Shown one piece after another: positions 8,500-17,206 of a DNA stretch of 43,313 nucleotides. The DNA comes from an uncultured Ureaplasma sp. (GTDB lineage: Bacteria > Bacillota_I > Bacilli_A > Mycoplasmatales > Mycoplasmoidaceae). Position 1 is the stretch's first letter. Every line of letters starts with the position of its first letter. Both the position numbers and the translations under genes were made by a program. The stretch spans positions 82,275-125,587 of the forward strand of contig CADAPK010000002.1 of the NCBI GenBank assembly GCA_902789825.1, in the 5' to 3' direction. The notes under the pieces are model-generated. The model was not told where the DNA came from and ran no database searches. It saw nothing but the letters and a program-made list of their open reading frames with translations.

Positions 8500-9663
8500 A
8501 TGGGTTTTATTTTATATCGTGTTAGTAATAGAGATGATTTTAAATTAAGTACAAATTTTTTAATTGATTTATATACACCAATTATTGGTAATCTTGCTAC
8601 AAGTTTTTATATATTATTGTGTAACAACCATCTTTATTTGTCAAAAAATCAAAATTTGTCATTCAATTTCCAATCAGCATGTCGACAAATTAATTGTTCG
8701 TTTGAACAATTAATTATGGCAAAAAAGAAACTTGAAGCAATTAAGTTGATTGATACGTTTATTTACATTGAAAATAATTCTGACAATAATTTGTGCCAAA
8801 TTATTGTTAATTCTCCATTAAATTTTTTTGATTTTGTCTCAAATCAAAAATATAAGGCATTATTGATCGATAAAATAGGTATTGAAAATTATCAATATCT
8901 TGAATATAAGTATTTGCCATCAACAATTTATAAAAATTTACTAAACATATCAGAGTCTTTTGATAATGTTTTTTCCGAAAAAAAATTAAAAGAAATCAAT
9001 GTTATTGATTTTGAAAAAATTTATATGGATTTATTCAAATTATCGACAAAAAATATTTTTATATCTGACGAATGTAAAAGGATTATTGAAAGTGTATATT
9101 TGAAATTTCCATTAACGCTAACAATCATTGAAAATATCATTTTAGATTCATTGGACAATGTAAGTGATAAAAATATATTTTCATGCAATCAAAAATTTTT
9201 AATTTGTAATTTAAATAAAGCTATCATGAATTCACCGCATTCAAATCGATTAAAAAGCAAATCTAATTTTATTAGAGTAAACCGTTCGGTTAATTTGTTT
9301 ACATCAACAATTTCTGATTTTGACTCACAAAAAATAATTAACGATTATAAATTAATTAATGCCGAACAATATTTATATTCAATTTTTAAAAAAAATGTTT
9401 CTATCTTTGAACGCAAAATTATTGGTATTTTAAAAGAAGAGTATTTGTTAAAAGACGAGGTGATCAATGTAATAATTGATTTTAGTCTTTATAAAACCAA
9501 TGGCAGATTAAACAAAAAATATATTTTTAAAATCGCACAAACATTTAATGGATTAAATATTAATTCCTGCGAATTAGCAATTGAGCATTTTCGTAAAAAT
9601 ATTTCTTTAAATTCCATTGATAATACGATGGATGTCAATGATGTAAAGTTGGAGCACATATAG
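8500..9663 (+). CDS. dnaB: replication initiation/membrane attachment protein DnaB (Gram-positive type, DnaD-like)
   Basis: 387 residues, somewhat shorter than B. subtilis DnaB (472). In Firmicutes this protein works with DnaD and DnaI to load the replicative helicase at oriC and on restarted forks. The N-terminal winged-helix domain is recognisable from LYTPIIGNLATSFYILLCN (the family's LYQPLIG..A..LYL) and the following CRQINCSFEQLIMAKKKLEAIKLI helix-turn-helix. The C-terminal part, IFERKIIGILKEEYLLKDEVINVIIDF, fits the DnaB/DnaD second domain with a conserved helix before an FxKI-type end. The identity is strengthened by the helicase-loader gene that begins at the very next base. This is not the helicase DnaB of E. 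coli nomenclature (DnaC in Bacillus). Confidence 0.8.
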   Translation: MGFILYRVSNRDDFKLSTNFLIDLYTPIIGNLATSFYILLCNNHLYLSKNQNLSFNFQSACRQINCSFEQLIMAKKKLEAIKLIDTFIYIENNSDNNLCQIIVNSPLNFFDFVSNQKYKALLIDKIGIENYQYLEYKYLPSTIYKNLLNISESFDNVFSEKKLKEINVIDFEKIYMDLFKLSTKNIFISDECKRIIESVYLKFPLTLTIIENIILDSLDNVSDKNIFSCNQKFLICNLNKAIMNSPHSNRLKSKSNFIRVNRSVNLFTSTISDFDSQKIINDYKLINAEQYLYSIFKKNVSIFERKIIGILKEEYLLKDEVINVIIDFSLYKTNGRLNKKYIFKIAQTFNGLNINSCELAIEHFRKNISLNSIDNTMDVNDVKLEHI

Positions 9664-10572
9664 ATGTTTCTTTCTACTAATAAAAAGGAACCTTTAAAAG
9701 GAAATTTTGATAAATATTTTAATTTGGAAATGATTAGGCAGTTAAATTTATCAAATGAGGAAAAAAATAATTGGAAGTATGTTGTCAAATATATTTATGA
9801 GCAAGAAGAAAAATGCAAAAGTTTATCACGTGATAAGTGTTACAATTCTTCTTTTATTCATATTATTTTAAAACGAAATTTTAAAACAAAACAATTGTAT
9901 TTATCAAGTTTTTTTTGTCCTAAAAAAAATTTATTTTCGAATTATTTGATCCGTGAGTTCCCTAATAATAAATTATTGTTGTCATTTAATGATCTAGCAA
10001 AGATTACGATTAAAATGGATGAAAAAAAAATTAATGATTTTTTATTAAAATCAATTAATAATAATACCGAAATTGGGTTATATTTATATGGCACAACGGG
10101 GATCGGTAAAACCCACAAAATCATTAGTTATTGTAATGAAATGATTTATCAAAATAAGAAAAAAGTGGCATATATTTTTTTACCACAATTTGTTGGCGAA
10201 ATTAAAAACAACTTTTCTGAGAATCCATCAAATAATAAGACACTAATAGCTAATTGCTGTGTAGCAGACATTCTTGTTCTTGATGATTTTGGTGCTGAAT
10301 ATGCATCAGCTTGGTTTTATTTAAATATTCTTCTCGTCATCTTTAATTATCGTTTTGAAAATGACAAGAAAATTATTTTTATTTCTAATTTTGAACCAAA
10401 GAAAATTGCAACTATTATGAAAAAAAAGTTATTGTCTAATTCTTCATCAAAATTTGACCGTGAAAATATTGATATTATTATTAATCGACTGGTTGATCGC
10501 ATGTGAAAATTATTTGATTTTAAGGAAGCATCCTATATTGCAAAATCACGTCGGACAAATAAAATATCATAA
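9664..10572 (+). CDS. dnaI: helicase loader DnaI (AAA+ ATPase)
   Basis: 302 residues including 21 after the TGA-Trp at 10504. DnaI binds the replicative helicase hexamer and loads it on DNA. The C-terminal AAA+ module shows Walker A GTTGIGKT (YLYGTTGIGKTHK, about residues 141-153), Walker B ILVLDDFGAEYAS (about 203-215), sensor I FISNF and a final arginine-rich DRENIDIIINRLVDRM segment as in DnaI/DnaC loaders. The N-terminal helicase-binding half lacks an obvious CxxC zinc pair, although C-containing segments (KCKSLSRDKCYN) are present. It starts immediately at the base after the dnaB stop, so translation is probably coupled. Confidence 0.9.
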
Positions 10573-10584
10573 TTTCTATCTTTT

Positions 10585-12501
10585 TTGTCAATTTTATATT
10601 TGGATATAAAAACAAGAATTAATATTACACAACAAACAAATAAATATGAGTGCGGTGTATGCGTTTTGACATCACTATATAACTATTACTATCATTTTGA
10701 AAAAATAACCAAGCAACAAATTCTTGATAAGGCATCGATCAATGAAAATGGATTAACAATTTTTGATTTTGAAATTTTAGCAAATAAATTTAATCTTGAA
10801 ACAGATAGTTATGAAATTAATTGGAATGAATTTGCGGATTTAAAAATTAATTATCCTTTTGTTTGCTTAATAAAATCCAAATTCGAAAATAATCATTATG
10901 TTATTGTTGTTAAAAACAAAAAATATATTCTCGTGTATGATTCATGTTATTTCAAACCCAAAAGATATTCATATGCTAATTTTCGCGAGGTTTTTTGTAA
11001 TGTCTTAATTTTTATAAGGAAACAACAAAAATTTGTTAAAAAAATAAAAGTTTTTAAAAAAAATATTTTTTTCGATTGAGATTATAAATTTTTTCTTATA
11101 TCATTTTTTCTGGCTTGTGTTTCACACATGCTTTTATTAATAAATTCATTATTCTTGAAATGAATAATTGATTTTGCAATAAGCAAAAAATCAGTGCAAA
11201 ATTTATTTATTATTGCCATAAATTTTTTATTAATTAGTGTTATTCAAAATTTATTTGATTACATACATAATTTGTGTTTTAGAAAACATTTACGGAGTTG
11301 CTGTCTAATTATCACAGATAAAATCCTACAATCTCTAATAAATAAACAAACGAATTTTAATTACAAATTCGATTTAAAATGATTAGGTAAAATTGATGAA
11401 TGTATTTTCACATTAGCTAATTATTTTATTATTGATTTAAATAAGCATATTTCAAACATTCTAATCTTATGCCTTTATACATGCATTCTTTGTTCAATAC
11501 AATGAAACATGTTAGTTTTTATTTTTTTATTACTTTTTGTTGAAATAGTTATTACTTTTATTAAATATTGGAAGAAACAAAAAATTTACTCATCTTTTTT
11601 AGCAAGCGAAAATAAAACGTTAGCGAACATCTCGAAAATTAAAAATTTATTTTCTGATCAAATTTGACCAACAAAATTTGATTACTATATTGATAGATTA
11701 CGTGAAAATTATTCAAATATTTATAAAAATTTTAACGATTTAAATGTCTTTTCATCTAATACATATTTATTTGAAAAAACAACAAAAATATTTATTGAGA
11801 TAATCTTTATCACATTATTTAGTTATTCATTTATCAAGTATGATTCATTATCGTTTGGCAAATTGTCTTTTTTACTAGCTAGCATGCAAATTATTAAATA
11901 TTTATTTAGTGAAATAGGGAATTATTTTTTAGAAAAAATAAAAGTAAATATCTTTTTAAATATTTACAATGACATCATTTGCATTGGTAATTTATCATCA
12001 GATAAAAAGGTAGATAGAAATTATATTTTTGATAAATGTAACAAAATAATTTTTAAATCGAGCAATGAGCATTTTGCGGTTTATAAAAACCAGTGCAATC
12101 GAATACCAAATTTTCGATCTATTTTAAAAAAATGTAATTCCATTATTATAAACAATAAGGAATATTCGCTCTACGCAAAAAGTATTTGAAAAAAACTAAT
12201 TATCTTTAATGAAAATATTGAGTTGTCAGTTGATTATTTCAAATATTTATACAAGAATAATTTTCATATTTATGATAAATATTTAAAGTTATTTAAGATC
12301 GATGTTACTAACTCATATTTAACATTCCATCAACGATTTTTTCTCAATTTTCTTTGCCTATTGAACGAGAAAAACAAAATTATTATTTTTGAAAAATCAA
12401 AATGCAAATTAGATTTAAACAACAAAATTATTAAAGAAATTTTTCATCAAATTAAAAAAGATAATTCAATTTTCATTCTAGAAGGTAATGCACATTCATA
12501 G
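10585..12501 (+). CDS. C39-peptidase/ABC exporter-like protein with degenerate ATPase domain
   Basis: 638 residues if TTG at 10585 is used; TTG at 10600 would also suit. Residues 10-130 form a C39 bacteriocin-processing peptidase: Q17 and C23 in QTNKYECGVC, H104 in NNHYVIV and D119 in LVYDSC, so the oxyanion Gln and the Cys-His-Asp triad are present. Roughly residues 165-450 carry about six membrane helices, as in PCAT-type exporters. The C-terminal domain still aligns with an ABC ATPase but is ruined. Walker A is replaced by YKNQCNRIPN (about 500-509), the LSGGQ signature by LTFHQ (579-583), and the Walker B Asp and catalytic Glu by F602-E603-K604; only the LD of the D-loop remains. It starts 12 nt after dnaI. 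An exporter running on ATP is unlikely; a processing protease or heteromeric partner is inferred. Confidence 0.82.
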
Positions 12502-12859
12502 AAATATCACAAGAGTCTTTTTTCTAATAATTTTTTTGTTTGTTTTTGAAATTTTATTGTTATCAATTTTGAAAATACAAGTTATCGTTAATGCATCAAT
12601 ATTTACGGAAGGTTCATCTTTATATATTGCTATAAGTAAAAAAGATGCGCAATATATTCAAAAAAACAATATTCAAAATGTCGAAATAAAATATGATGAT
12701 AAAAAATATAGAAGTAAAATTTATTTTCAAGAAGTCATTGACGATTTGTACTTGTATTATTTAACGAATAGAAAAATATTTTATAAAAAATCGATGGAAA
12801 ATATTACATTAATAATTGATGAAGTAAATCTATATCAATATTACTATAAAAAAATGTAG
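12488..12859 (+). CDS. small membrane-anchored protein, possible adaptor of the C39-ABC protein
   Basis: 123 residues; ATG overlaps the end of the C39-ABC gene by 14 nt, so the two are probably translationally coupled. One N-terminal membrane helix (VFFLIIFLFVFEILLLSI, about residues 10-27) is followed by about 95 extracytoplasmic residues. These contain a beta-rich pattern VIVNASIFTEGSSLYIAIS..DAQYI...NVEIKYDDKKYRSKI. That pattern is like the C-terminal barrel of HlyD-type membrane-fusion proteins, but the coiled coil and lipoyl domains are missing. No Cys lipobox. Function is not recognised; position suggests it works with its neighbour. Its last 56 nt overlap the convergent S1-domain ORF. 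Confidence 0.7.
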   Translation: MHIHRNITRVFFLIIFLFVFEILLLSILKIQVIVNASIFTEGSSLYIAISKKDAQYIQKNNIQNVEIKYDDKKYRSKIYFQEVIDDLYLYYLTNRKIFYKKSMENITLIIDEVNLYQYYYKKM

Positions 12860-13226
12860 AATAGACACAATGTTTTAATTGGCGTGCCATATTGGAGTTG
12901 AACCAACAACCTTTTGATCCGAAGTCAAATGCTCTATCCAATTGAGCTAATGGCACATGTTTTTTAATCGTTCGATTAAATTCCTTTTTAAATTGGTGAA
13001 TTGCTTTATATGATAAAAAAATTTGGTTTGCTTTTTTCTCAATTATTAAAAAATTGTAATTTTTATTTTTAACGAAAAAATTTGCTAAATTCTTTACGAT
13101 ATAATCGCTAACATTTGAGATGTGGCAAAGTCCAACAAAACCATCAAACATAGCCAAAATATATGTTTTCGTAATTTTGATTACTTTAGCATTAACAATT
13201 GAGTTAATTGTAATAGAATTAACCAT
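12804..13226 (-). CDS. S1-domain RNA-binding protein whose frame runs through tRNA-Arg(UCG)
   Basis: ATG at 13226 starts one S1 OB-fold: NAKVIKITKTYILAMFDGFVGLCHIS (residues 12-37) through QIFLSYK near residue 73. This resembles the small general-stress S1 proteins (GSP13/YugI, CvfD) of Firmicutes, which bind ribosomes or RNA. Those are about 110-130 residues. Here the frame has no stop before the tRNA gene on the same strand: 90 codons lead exactly to the first base of the mature tRNA. Translation then continues through the tRNA (the familiar AQLDRAFDFGSKG-type tRNA peptide) to TAA at 12804-12806, overlapping the convergent gene. RNase P cleavage would leave a stopless mRNA ending on a codon boundary. 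The true C-terminus is uncertain. Confidence 0.7.
   Translation of the reverse strand: MVNSITINSIVNAKVIKITKTYILAMFDGFVGLCHISNVSDYIVKNLANFFVKNKNYNFLIIEKKANQIFLSYKAIHQFKKEFNRTIKKHVPLAQLDRAFDFGSKGCWFNSNMARQLKHCVYSTFFYSNIDIDLLHQLLM
12880..12956 (-). tRNA. tRNA-Arg (anticodon UCG)
   Basis: Minus-strand cloverleaf. The acceptor arm GTGCCAT pairs with ATGGCAC, the D arm has GCTC/GAGC, and the anticodon arm is TTTGA-CTTCGGA-TCAAA with anticodon UCG (reads CGA/CGG). The T arm has GGTTCAACTCC, and CCA is encoded after discriminator G. It lies inside the S1-domain reading frame on the same strand, so the two are probably one transcript. Confidence 0.95.
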
Positions 13227-13253
13227 AAAAATTACATCTAAATTATAAAATAA

Positions 13254-14366
13254 ATGATTTGCGTTTCATCAAAACTATCTATTACCCAAAAAAGAAAAAA
13301 ATTCTCATTTTTCTATACATTTTTAATTTGTGGAATGATTTTTCTTACTTTTAATAAAAACATTGTTTACATTAGTTTTTTACCATTACTATTGCTTTTT
13401 ATTATTAAAAATGATTTGAAAGAAAAGGCTATGATGTTTATCATCATTTTCTTTTATATTTCTCTTTTATTTCTATTTGGACAATATAGTTTATTTAATA
13501 AATTTGCGGCATGACTAAATTTTTCACCTCGCGATAAAATATTTTCATTTATTGAAAGTAATTATGATAGTAATGTAGCACGATTTATAAATTTAGTTAT
13601 TTTTAATCGCAAAAATTTTGAAACTACTTTTTTGTATAGTAAAACAATAAAATTAGGTATAGCATGAATTATTTGTGTTAGTGGTTTTCACCTTCAATTA
13701 ATAAAGAAAGTAATTTTATCCATCACACCGCGAGAAAATAAAATTATTGGAAATGTGATTTGTGGTATGTTCTTGATGTTTTATGCATATATGATTAATT
13801 TTTCTTATTCATCAATGCGCGTTGTTTTTCAATTTATTTTTTCACATTTTTTCCATAAGAATAAAATTAATAGGATTGAATCACTAGGTTTCATTGGTAT
13901 ATTAATTTGTATTTTAAATTCTAATTGCTTTATAAATTTTAGTTTTATCTTAATGATGATTAGTTGCTATGGAATATATTTTATTTTATCGTTAAAAATA
14001 GATAATTTATTTATACGAAAAATTTTAATTTCATTTTATGTGAATTTATTAAATTTACCAATTCTCTCCTTAATAAATAATTCTATCTCAATAATGTTGA
14101 TTATTAATTCATTTGTTTTTTCATATATTTTTCCATTTGTCTATGTCTATTTTCTAATTTTTATGTGAATACCAATTTTTACTATCATTCATGAAAAAAT
14201 AATTTTTTTTACTAATTTTTTAATTAATTCTTTTTTGGAAATTAATTATGTAATATTTTTTCCTAGATTTAATGATTGACAAATAGTTACATATCTAATA
14301 ATTGCTATTATTTCATCTAAAATTATTCATGAGAAAATTATTTACAAATATATAATTTATCAATAA
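13254..14366 (+). CDS. comEC: ComEC/Rec2-family competence membrane protein
   Basis: 370 residues with six or more TGA-Trp codons. The protein is almost entirely hydrophobic, with about nine to ten membrane segments. The ComEC core motif VSGFHLQLI (about residues 140-148; family SG.H) is present, as is SYSSMRVVFQF, corresponding to the family's 'S..RA..M' segment. ComEC forms the channel that carries single-stranded DNA into the cell during natural transformation; mollicutes keep only this competence domain and lack the OB and metallo-beta-lactamase parts, as here. Its neighbour holA is the usual partner in mollicute genomes. It diverges from the S1-domain gene (27 nt gap), and the holA ATG starts directly after its stop. 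Transport activity is not shown. Confidence 0.82.
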
Positions 14367-15287
14367 ATGATTAGATTTTTTCATAGTAATGAAATTGATG
14401 TAATAGATTGAAAAATTAGAAAATTTTGTTTTGACAATAATCTATCCCCATATAGGTTTGATTCTTCGTCCACTTTTGATGATATTGAGAGAAAAATTTT
14501 TCAACTAGATGTGTTTGGTGGTAAAAAAAACGAATTATATATAATAGATTTTTCTAAATTATGTGCTTGTAAAGAAAATATTAATTTTCTTATAAAGTTA
14601 GTAAATTCCAAAAAACCAATAATTCTTTTTTGTAAGAATAATAATTTTGATAAAAAGTTAGGTGATAAAAGCGGAATTATTGTGGAAAAACTTCGTCCTT
14701 TTTCGTGACAAGATAAAAAAGAAATGATATCCTTTTTTTTACATAAAAATAATGTAAAAATATTTGAGCATGATATCGAATATATGTGTTCAAATTTATT
14801 AACTAATCATCATTTTATTGAAAATGAAATTGGTAAAATATCACTTTTGAAAAAAAATTTTTCAATCAATTCATTAATTATTAGACAAGTATTATTTGAT
14901 TGTTTTAATGCAAATGTTTTTAAAATAGTTGATTTTTGATTGCAAAGAAGCTACAAGAATTTACTTAAAATTTTAAATGAAACATCCTACAATTCATCCC
15001 AAACTCAATGAATCATTCAAATATTTATTACGAGATTAGTCCAAATAAAAATGTTTATTTTAGCGACTGAAAATGGAGTTGATAAAACTACTATTGTCGA
15101 CAATTTACAATTATCATTTTTCCAACAAAAAATTTATAAAAATTTATATTGGTTCAAAAAAAAAGATTCAATTAACAAGATTTTAGAAAAATTATGAAAC
15201 CTTGAAATTGGAATAAAAACAAATGAAAAGCATTATTTTTTTTCTTTTGTTAAAATTTTATTAGACGATCGTTATGACAAATGCTAG
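14367..15287 (+). CDS. holA: DNA polymerase III subunit delta
   Basis: 306 residues with eight TGA-Trp codons. HolA is the clamp-loader subunit that opens the beta sliding clamp. Typical features are the N-terminal MIRFFHSNEIDVIDW segment, FQLDVFGGKKNELYIIDFS (the SLF..KKLVII clamp-binding region, about residues 45-63), KPIILFCKNNN, and a helical C-terminal collar with SFFQQKIYKNLY and a final KILLDDRY. Walker motifs are absent, as expected for delta. It begins at the first base after comEC and overlaps the next gene by 14 nt, so the comEC-holA-membrane protein genes form one tight operon. The holB (delta') gene of the same complex is 7 kb downstream on the other strand. Confidence 0.82.
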
Positions 15288-16317
15288 TAAGACATATGAA
15301 AAATTAGCAAATTGAATATATTGTATATTGCACAATGATTCGATAAATTTTTTCGCATATGATAAAAGATTCATTTCTTTATTTGAAAAGGAATTATTTT
15401 TTTTGTATTGTCTCGAAAAGAAATACTCTAAGGACGTTGATTTAGGAAACAAATTCTCAGTAAAATCGTTAATTCATGATTACAATCAAAAAATAGGTAA
15501 AAATTTCACTTTACCGTTCGAAGCAAAAGTTGATTTAAATAATCTTGATGATGAAATCAATTATTTATTTGTTTATTGTCATAATGTTTTTAATGTTGAT
15601 TTAAATAAATTAGCAAAAAATAATTCATTTATGCAAAAAACATCAAAAATAGAAAGTGCAAATAAGTTTATAGAAAACAATAATCAGCAAAAACTTAATT
15701 TTGCTATCAATACTAATATGAAAATTTTAGAACAAATTAAACTTGGTAAAATTTTTATTTATACATCACGCCCAAGGATTATTCCAATCTTAAAGAGGAT
15801 TTTTTTACTTTTTTTGCTAATTAATATATTACTCATAATTTTTATGATGATTATTTCCATTCGAATTGATGGTTTATGATTGAGTAGTGATAGTATGATT
15901 GATACACGATGAAATATTATTAATTATTTTTTACTTCTTTTCCTTAATATTGCCTTTTTTTCAAAATTTATTCGGGAAATCATGAATAATCGTAATGATA
16001 ACATAAAGTATTATTTTCAATGACGCCCAGCATTATTAATTTTTGCAATTAATTTTTTTTCGTTTATCTATGTAGATTTTAATCAATTCAAAGTGATTGA
16101 AAATTACGATAAGTCACAACTAGATGATCGTTTTTTGTATTTGTCACTTGTTTCGTATTGATATGTTTGATTTATGATAATATTAGTATTGATTGGTATT
16201 TTTTTAGTGATTATGCTAGCAATACATTACAATCCTAAAAAAGATATTACAATGATTAGAAAATTAATTGAACAACAAATTAGTGAGATCGATAAGAATA
16301 GAGAGAATGCAAATTAA
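15274..16317 (+). CDS. uncharacterised membrane protein with long hydrophilic N-terminus
   Basis: 347 residues; ATG at 15274 overlaps holA by 14 nt. I do not recognise the family. Residues 1-165 are hydrophilic, probably helical and cytoplasmic (for example KIGKNFTLPFEAKVDLNN). They are followed by about four membrane helices: around 168-195 (IIPILKRIFLLFLLINILLI), 215-235 (NYFLLLFLNIAFFSKFI), 248-266 (PALLIFAINFFSFIYVDF) and 293-318 (YWYVWFMIILVLIGIFLVIM). A short charged tail ends in KNRENAN. There is no signal peptide or catalytic motif. It is tightly packed between holA and an ECF transporter S-component gene, with which it overlaps by 11 nt; co-transcription is likely but says little about function. 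Confidence 0.75.
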
Positions 16318-17206
16318 ATTTGTAAAAATAGAGAAAAAAATTAAAAAATTTCTTTTCCCAATTGATAAACCTTTTTCATCAATAAAGATATTAACTTTTA
16401 TAGCGATTATTTTTGCTTTATATATATTTCTAGTTCTTTGCACAATGCATTCAATTCTTAACTTTTCGATTTCATGAATTCCAATAATGGTTTTAGGATG
16501 ATACCTAGGACCTATTTATAGTTGCTTTTTAACAATAATTTTTGATAATATTCGTTTTTTCTTATTGTCACAAGTGGGAGGATTATGGTTTTGGCTATAT
16601 GCAATTCAGGCTCCATTAGTCGCATTAATATCTAGTTTATTTGGCGGGTTATTTTATTATCGAATTAATGTTACCAAGTCATCTTGCATAAAATCAATAT
16701 TTTTCGATGTAATGCTTACCAATTTGATTGTTGTTAGTTTTTTTGTTTTTACAATATTTATGCTACTATCTTTTGTTAATAATTCAACTAAATTTAGTGG
16801 TAGTGAAAAGATTGAGGCATTTTTTTTAAATGTATACAAATGAATTGCTATAAGTCTTCTCACTTTTAGTTTAATTGGTTTTGAGATAATTATTATTAAT
16901 TGTAAGTGCAACCGACAAAATAGAAAAGATTTCATTCTTCGAATATTAATTTTATGCTATTGTAGCTCATTGGTTTTGGTTATAATGTCTATTTTTCCTT
17001 TTATTTTGCAACCAATTGCAACGATTGAATATTGTAAATATTGTGGGTTTCCTAATAAGTCATTTTTATTTTATTTGATCCCACAAACATTTCGCCAATC
17101 CATAATTGTACCAATTGAAATTTTCGTTTTGAAAACAATTATTTTACTTGCTCAAAAGCAATTTAATGAAATTAATGATCAAATTAACAATCAATGAAAG
17201 AAATAG
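16307..17206 (+). CDS. ECF transporter S component (vitamin uptake), substrate unknown
   Basis: 299 residues; ATG at 16307 is preferred over TTG at 16268 because it gives the shorter basic N-terminus. The protein has about six membrane helices. The early segment WIPIMVLGWYLGPIYSCFLTIIFDNIRFFL matches the 'LGP..G......D.l' helix pair of S components such as FolT. These bind the vitamin and are driven by the EcfT/EcfA modules, which are not in this window. A charged tail (QKQFNEINDQINNQWKK) ends the protein. Members in mollicutes usually take up folate, riboflavin or similar, but the substrate cannot be told here. It overlaps the preceding membrane-protein gene by 11 nt. Confidence 0.7.

Follow-up and report, generated by a model that had tools for sequence, protein, structure and literature searches.

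The closest described relatives of the protein analysed here are the PCAT/AMS transporters, such as PCAT1 of Clostridium thermocellum, ComA and LahT, in which a C39 peptidase domain is followed by a transmembrane domain (TMD) and a nucleotide-binding ATPase domain (NBD). HlyB-type transporters, which carry a C39-like domain (CLD), retain the ATPase but no longer have peptidase activity. Without ATP, PCAT1 cleaves with its peptidase domains docked on the inward-facing core; once ATP binds, these domains come away from the core and little activity is left (PMC6959990; PMC6363468); outward opening needs ATP-driven closure of the NBDs (PMC6959990). JCVI-syn3A 0401 of M. mycoides is a C39-ABC homologue without a double-glycine substrate, to which import of lipoyl peptides has tentatively been assigned, and no double-glycine leader substrates have been reported for other mycoplasmas (PMC6609329).

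We examined a C39-ABC gene in a 43,313-nucleotide stretch of DNA (the window) from an uncultured Ureaplasma sp. Its product has the C39-TMD-NBD order of the PCAT/AMS transporters and their intact Q/C/H/D residues, and can be likened to 0401 through the description of the latter as a C39-ABC protein (PMC6609329). Unlike the PCAT/AMS transporters, the window protein has an NBD that lacks the Walker A, signature, Walker B and H-loop motifs, and it has no known double-glycine substrate. It shares the architecture of the HlyB-type transporters and, as in these, one function has been lost, but the loss is the mirror image of theirs. Among the open-licence papers searched, we found none that describes a C39 exporter whose ATPase is dead.

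The best-matching curated family is NCBIfam NF045998 (the Mbov_0121 family, cleave_ABC_plasm), which aligns with residues 16-499 and may share its gene pairing with a MAG1140-like partner; the window protein reaches only 156 bits where the family cut-off is 500, and its ATPase part is unaligned. Since intact homologues in the Mycoplasmoidaceae also fall below 500 bits (279 in genome G021), this score alone cannot separate dead from intact ATPases. Nearly every genome of the order has some match to the family (251 of 258, of which 82 are above the cut-off); many of the low-scoring matches may be other ABC proteins. C39-ABC genes occur almost throughout the Mycoplasmatales and in the minimal cell JCVI-syn3A, as 0401.

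Domains of the C39 protein

The original prediction described a C39 domain with Q17, C23, H104 and D119 intact, and this is borne out by a match to Pfam Peptidase_C39 (E=2.4e-19) and by alignment of all four residues with the ComA peptidase (PDB). The modelled peptidase domain superimposes on the ComA and LahT peptidases with Z ~16 and an rmsd of 2.2 A. Pfam ABC_membrane does not match the window protein; the predicted model nevertheless places six long helices after the peptidase domain, in agreement with the roughly six that had been proposed, and its top full-length fold matches are PCAT1 structures. The whole-chain rmsd to PCAT1 exceeds 20 A, so this match supports the domain order and the folds, not the conformation. 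The full-length model reaches modest confidence (mean pLDDT 59, pTM 0.38); the likely reason is that no more than five sequences were usable.

Table 1. Features of the C39 gene and its partner, in window coordinates.
Feature	Position	Strand	Remarks
C39 peptidase/ABC-exporter-fold gene, dead nucleotide-binding domain	10585..12501	+	638 codons, code 4
C39 peptidase domain, residues ~12-148	10618..11028	+	Pfam PF03412; structural matches
Q17, oxyanion-side glutamine	10633..10635	+	invariant in 38/38 dead-ATPase relatives
C23, catalytic cysteine	10651..10653	+	invariant in 38/38 dead-ATPase relatives; aligned with ComA Cys
H104, catalytic histidine	10894..10896	+	kept in 38/38 dead-ATPase relatives
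D119, catalytic aspartate	10939..10941	+	kept in 38/38 dead-ATPase relatives
Transmembrane domain, six long helices, residues 161-464	11065..11976	+	predicted model; PCAT1 full-length match
Pseudo-ATPase domain, residues 483-638, ABC fold without catalytic motifs	12031..12498	+	
Walker A column: YKNQCNRIPN (500-509), P-loop lost	12082..12111	+	aligned with intact homologues
ABC signature column: LTFHQ (579-583)	12319..12333	+	aligned with intact homologues
Walker B and catalytic Glu column: IIIFEK (599-604)	12379..12396	+	aligned with intact homologues
Partner gene, 123 aa, MAG1140-like	12488..12859	+	14-base overlap with the 3' end of the C39 gene

The C-terminal domain is predicted to be an alpha/beta domain, with pLDDT mostly 72-89. 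Loss of its ATPase motifs, as first noted, is confirmed in the motif columns listed in Table 1; the signature column reads LTFHQRF when extended, the H-loop column reads LEGN, no P-loop was located elsewhere in the protein, and Pfam ABC_tran was not found in its C-terminal part. Its origin from an ABC ATPase is shown by profile comparison. The C-terminal-domain profile of the window's genus (g1) matches that of intact domains with Probab 96.6 and E 6e-10, and the profile of a second genus of the family (g9) matches the intact one with Probab 99.2 and E 8e-20, compared with Probab <=0.3 for column-shuffled control profiles. Judged by these profiles, the domain is a degenerate ABC ATPase by descent, and the protein would not be expected to bind ATP.

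Distribution of ATPase loss and selection on the domains

We searched 95 genomes of the family and recovered full or partial homologues from ~80 of them; two homologues from other families of the order served as outgroups. The ATPase motifs are unrecognisable in 38 of the 78 full-length proteins (38 genomes), namely in all five from g1, a genus made up of MAGs of uncultured bacteria from rumen or gut (RGIG3423 from goat reticulum is one), in all 30 from g9, and in three of seven from a third genus of the same family, g11. The other 40 keep the P-loop. All 38 proteins with a dead ATPase keep the Q/C/H/D residues. Among the matches listed for other families of the order, no dead version was seen, judging by their alignments, which reach the end of the profile or nearly so.

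In a protein tree built from the C39 domain and TMD, with the ATPase omitted, g1 and g9 form a single clade (99/96) and the g11 trio falls elsewhere; taken by itself, the C39 protein tree remains compatible with a single dead clade (AU test, p 0.285). The RpoB tree likewise unites g1 and g9 (SH-aLRT 100), but in it the g11 trio falls within g11, next to species with an intact ATPase, and this requires at least two independent losses of the ATPase. A single loss followed by lateral transfer was also considered; it is allowed by the AU test on the protein tree, but RpoB sets the g11 trio apart. On these trees, the loss is ancient, lying in the common ancestor of g1 and g9 and, separately, in g11. 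The phenomenon extends beyond the single gene of the window: it spans two genera, has recurred in a third, and is accompanied by a conserved partner gene.

Variant homologues were also encountered. In G007 (genus g3; L138, C1:63600-69300), the ATPase is intact and the C39 triad is lost, the Q/C/H/D columns reading M, R, Q and N, as in HlyB-like proteins. Four homologues with an intact ATPase (L064 in G024, L063 in G012, L065 in G035 and L086 in G103) have an unusual triad, with Cys in the catalytic Asp column. In G006 (L067, 7808-9845), the gene is divided between two ORFs, one for C39-TMD (493 aa) and one for the ATPase (189 aa), which lie in different frames with an overlap of a few bases; this may be a natural split, a frameshift or a sequencing error.

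Purifying selection acts on the dead domain as well as on the rest of the protein. In the group formed by the window's genome (G000), G004 and G003, the dead ATPase domain has an omega of 0.10-0.14, no different from C39 (0.11-0.14) and the TMD (0.09-0.15; 0.07-0.15 per domain overall in the window's group), values that are approximate as some dS exceed 1. Close pairs in g9 give 0.17-0.27 for the dead domain versus 0.02-0.12 for C39, so that the dead domain is looser than C39 and still constrained. It is looser still in the g11 trio, where omega for the NBD reaches 0.83 in one distant pair (G032/G112); its fast evolution suggests that the dead domain there may be under little constraint. Conservation across the protein is reversed between the two sets: columns conserved at >=80% number 30 in C39, 15 in the TMD and 7 in the NBD of the dead clade, and 12, 1 and 22, respectively, in the intact set. 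By these counts, the ATPase ranks first among the domains when intact and last when dead, C39 then taking first place; because the clades differ in age, it is the order of the domains that can be compared, not the absolute column counts.

The original prediction held that the gene is maintained and not simply decaying, and alignment of homologues, dN/dS and structure agree on this. It had also allowed for a fresh pseudogene, with intact close homologues and relaxed selection over the whole gene; intact homologues were found only outside the window's genus, and the gene as a whole shows no relaxation of selection. A fresh pseudogene is excluded.

A small membrane-anchored partner

The partner is predicted to consist of one N-terminal membrane helix and a small six-stranded beta-barrel (pLDDT 84), and its gene is under purifying selection (omega 0.11-0.14). 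Its match to NCBIfam MAG1140 (NF045999) is weak, at 20.7 bits against a cut-off of 35; the accession of that family adjoins that of the Mbov_0121 C39-ABC family (NF045998). We found no functional accounts of MG390, MPN571, Mbov_0121 or MAG1140 in the open-licence papers searched. The fold does not decide a name for the partner, for instance as a membrane fusion protein of the MacA/HlyD type, since the barrel matches many others and is not diagnostic: it scores Z 7.3 against the MacA barrel, and many unrelated barrels score as high or higher (Z 7-8.6).

A protein of this type directly follows the C39 gene in nearly all genomes read outside g9, whether the ATPase is dead or intact, including those of g1 and of the dead g11 species; in M. 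genitalium, the C39/partner pair is followed by ybeY and era. In g9, the C39 gene has relocated and no longer lies beside the partner. General loss of the partner in g9 was ruled out by a search with our own profile of 19 partner sequences, which has hits in every non-g9 genome searched and in most of those from g9, and which located unlinked copies. Candidates elsewhere in the genome are full-length or nearly so in 13 of 17 g9 genomes, with E <1e-4, and weak, partial or absent in the rest. Nine g9 loci were read, and in five of them the partner lies upstream of era and recO, apparently its ancestral site and similar to the arrangement in M. genitalium. That the partner has been kept after loss of the ATPase, even after its separation from the C39 gene, suggests that the function of the pair survives. 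Its retention could also mean that some transport persists.

Proposed function and alternatives

We think it rather probable that the window protein is an ATP-independent, membrane-anchored C39 peptidase derived from a PCAT-type peptide-cleaving exporter. The intact triad, the kept scaffold, the dead ATPase domain under selection, the kept partner and the failure to detect another exporter subunit in the closest genomes all point to this reading, and a membrane-tethered processing protease is the best supported of the roles first put forward. On this view, the ATP motor of a PCAT-type exporter would have disappeared once in the ancestor shared by g1 and g9, and separately in g11. By analogy with PCAT1, two peptidase domains would remain at their docking sites, the lateral openings of the membrane domain in its inward-facing state, and the transporter core would be needed for cleavage there. 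Since ATP undocks PCAT1, a protein that cannot bind it would be expected to remain docked at all times, with its protease on; given the modest confidence of the model, we infer the docking from PCAT1. The dead ATPase domain may serve as a dimerisation or docking scaffold, presumably within a homodimer, and the small partner may act at the outer face of the membrane. The substrate is the weakest step of the proposal: it may be a peptide or the N-terminus of a membrane protein, cut at the cytosolic face, with a product that would need no ATP-driven push or would leave by another route. One strict pattern found no ORF with a double-glycine leader in the 43-kb window.

That the ATPase has been discarded at least twice, with the triad always and the partner mostly kept, shows which activity is selected, and suggests that cutting matters more than ATP-driven transport for the C39-ABC gene. 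This pattern argues against roles that need ATP-driven transport. If 0401, likened to the window protein by its description, follows the same logic, mutants in its Walker motifs are predicted to be better tolerated than mutants in its catalytic Cys.

One alternative to the peptidase reading is an ATP-independent translocator, in which the cleaved peptide would be passed outwards by means of cleavage itself, an ion gradient or partner-aided extracytoplasmic folding. The TMD and the membrane-anchored partner, probably an outward-facing beta-barrel, are both kept after ATPase loss, as such a machine would require, but outward opening of PCAT1 depends on ATP-driven closure of the NBDs (PMC6959990) and we saw no new energy-coupling feature, which makes this alternative unlikely. 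It is similarly doubtful that a scaffold converted at least twice, comprising peptidase, membrane domain and outer barrel partner, still moves peptide without its nucleotide motor.

Another possibility, which we consider quite improbable, is that the C39 fold acts as an amide or acyl transferase, for example in lipoyl-peptide import and transamidation as proposed for 0401 (PMC6609329). No double-glycine substrate is known, and C39-like folds with other roles are among the structural matches, as this reading would have it, but import without ATP is hard to envisage and the lipoyl-accepting E2 (PF00198) is undetected in g1, g9 and g11, which keep the C39 protein. This domain went undetected in 70 of the 95 family genomes, including every g1, g9 and g11 genome searched, which argues against a lipoyl role there and makes lipoyl import a poor candidate for what the gene does in general. 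The distribution of pyruvate dehydrogenase E2 across the family is uneven: it is present in g2, g6, g7, g10 and one g3 genome, and undetected in g8, g4 and g5 as well as in g1, g9 and g11.

The original prediction also raised the possibility that the protein is half of a heteromer, a partner ABC subunit supplying ATP hydrolysis. There are well-known heterodimeric ABC exporters, such as BmrCD and TM287/288, in which one ATP site is degenerate, and other ABC exporters are encoded in three of six g1 genomes, where an exporter pair is present in other members of the genus, and in nearly all of g9. This explanation loses ground in the window's genome (G000) and its two closest relatives, G003 and G004, in which no ABC_membrane (PF00664) protein was detected; with completeness of 66-86%, the absence is strong only for the three taken jointly and a partner could have been missed. 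We take the remaining ABC ATPases of G000, from motifs and size, to be importer, Suf-type, LolD-like or UvrA proteins. To our knowledge, degenerate ABC subunits still bind ATP, and with both Walker A and signature lost, the protein could not supply its half of the usual sandwich at the ATP site of a partner. The lack of another ABC-exporter subunit in these genomes, together with loss of the signature, leaves the heteromer highly unlikely. Decay of the whole gene as a pseudogene with a rotting ATPase part would fit the disappearance of every catalytic ATPase motif and the position of the NBD as the least conserved domain of the dead clade, but is scarcely credible when 38 genomes from three genera carry the frame open at full length, beside an invariant peptidase triad, low omega in every domain in the window's group and a constrained partner.

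The reading frame itself stands as first delimited, on the plus strand and in code 4: it is open with its six in-frame TGA codons read as Trp and interrupted under the standard code, so code 4 is needed. The TTG start at 10585 is not conserved and is probably not the true one; in the relative G003, no ATG, GTG or TTG was found upstream of the peptidase domain. The true start is probably ATA (10606) or ATT (10618). The upstream DnaI-like gene (9664-10572) is in the same frame as the C39 ORF, with a single TAA between them, and the region 10573-10640 likely provides either a non-canonical ATA/ATT start or coupled re-initiation. Across 8500-17206 of the window, the C39 gene is flanked on one side by DnaB_2-like and DnaI-like replication genes and on the other by ComEC-like, HolA-like, MPN449-like and ECF S component genes.
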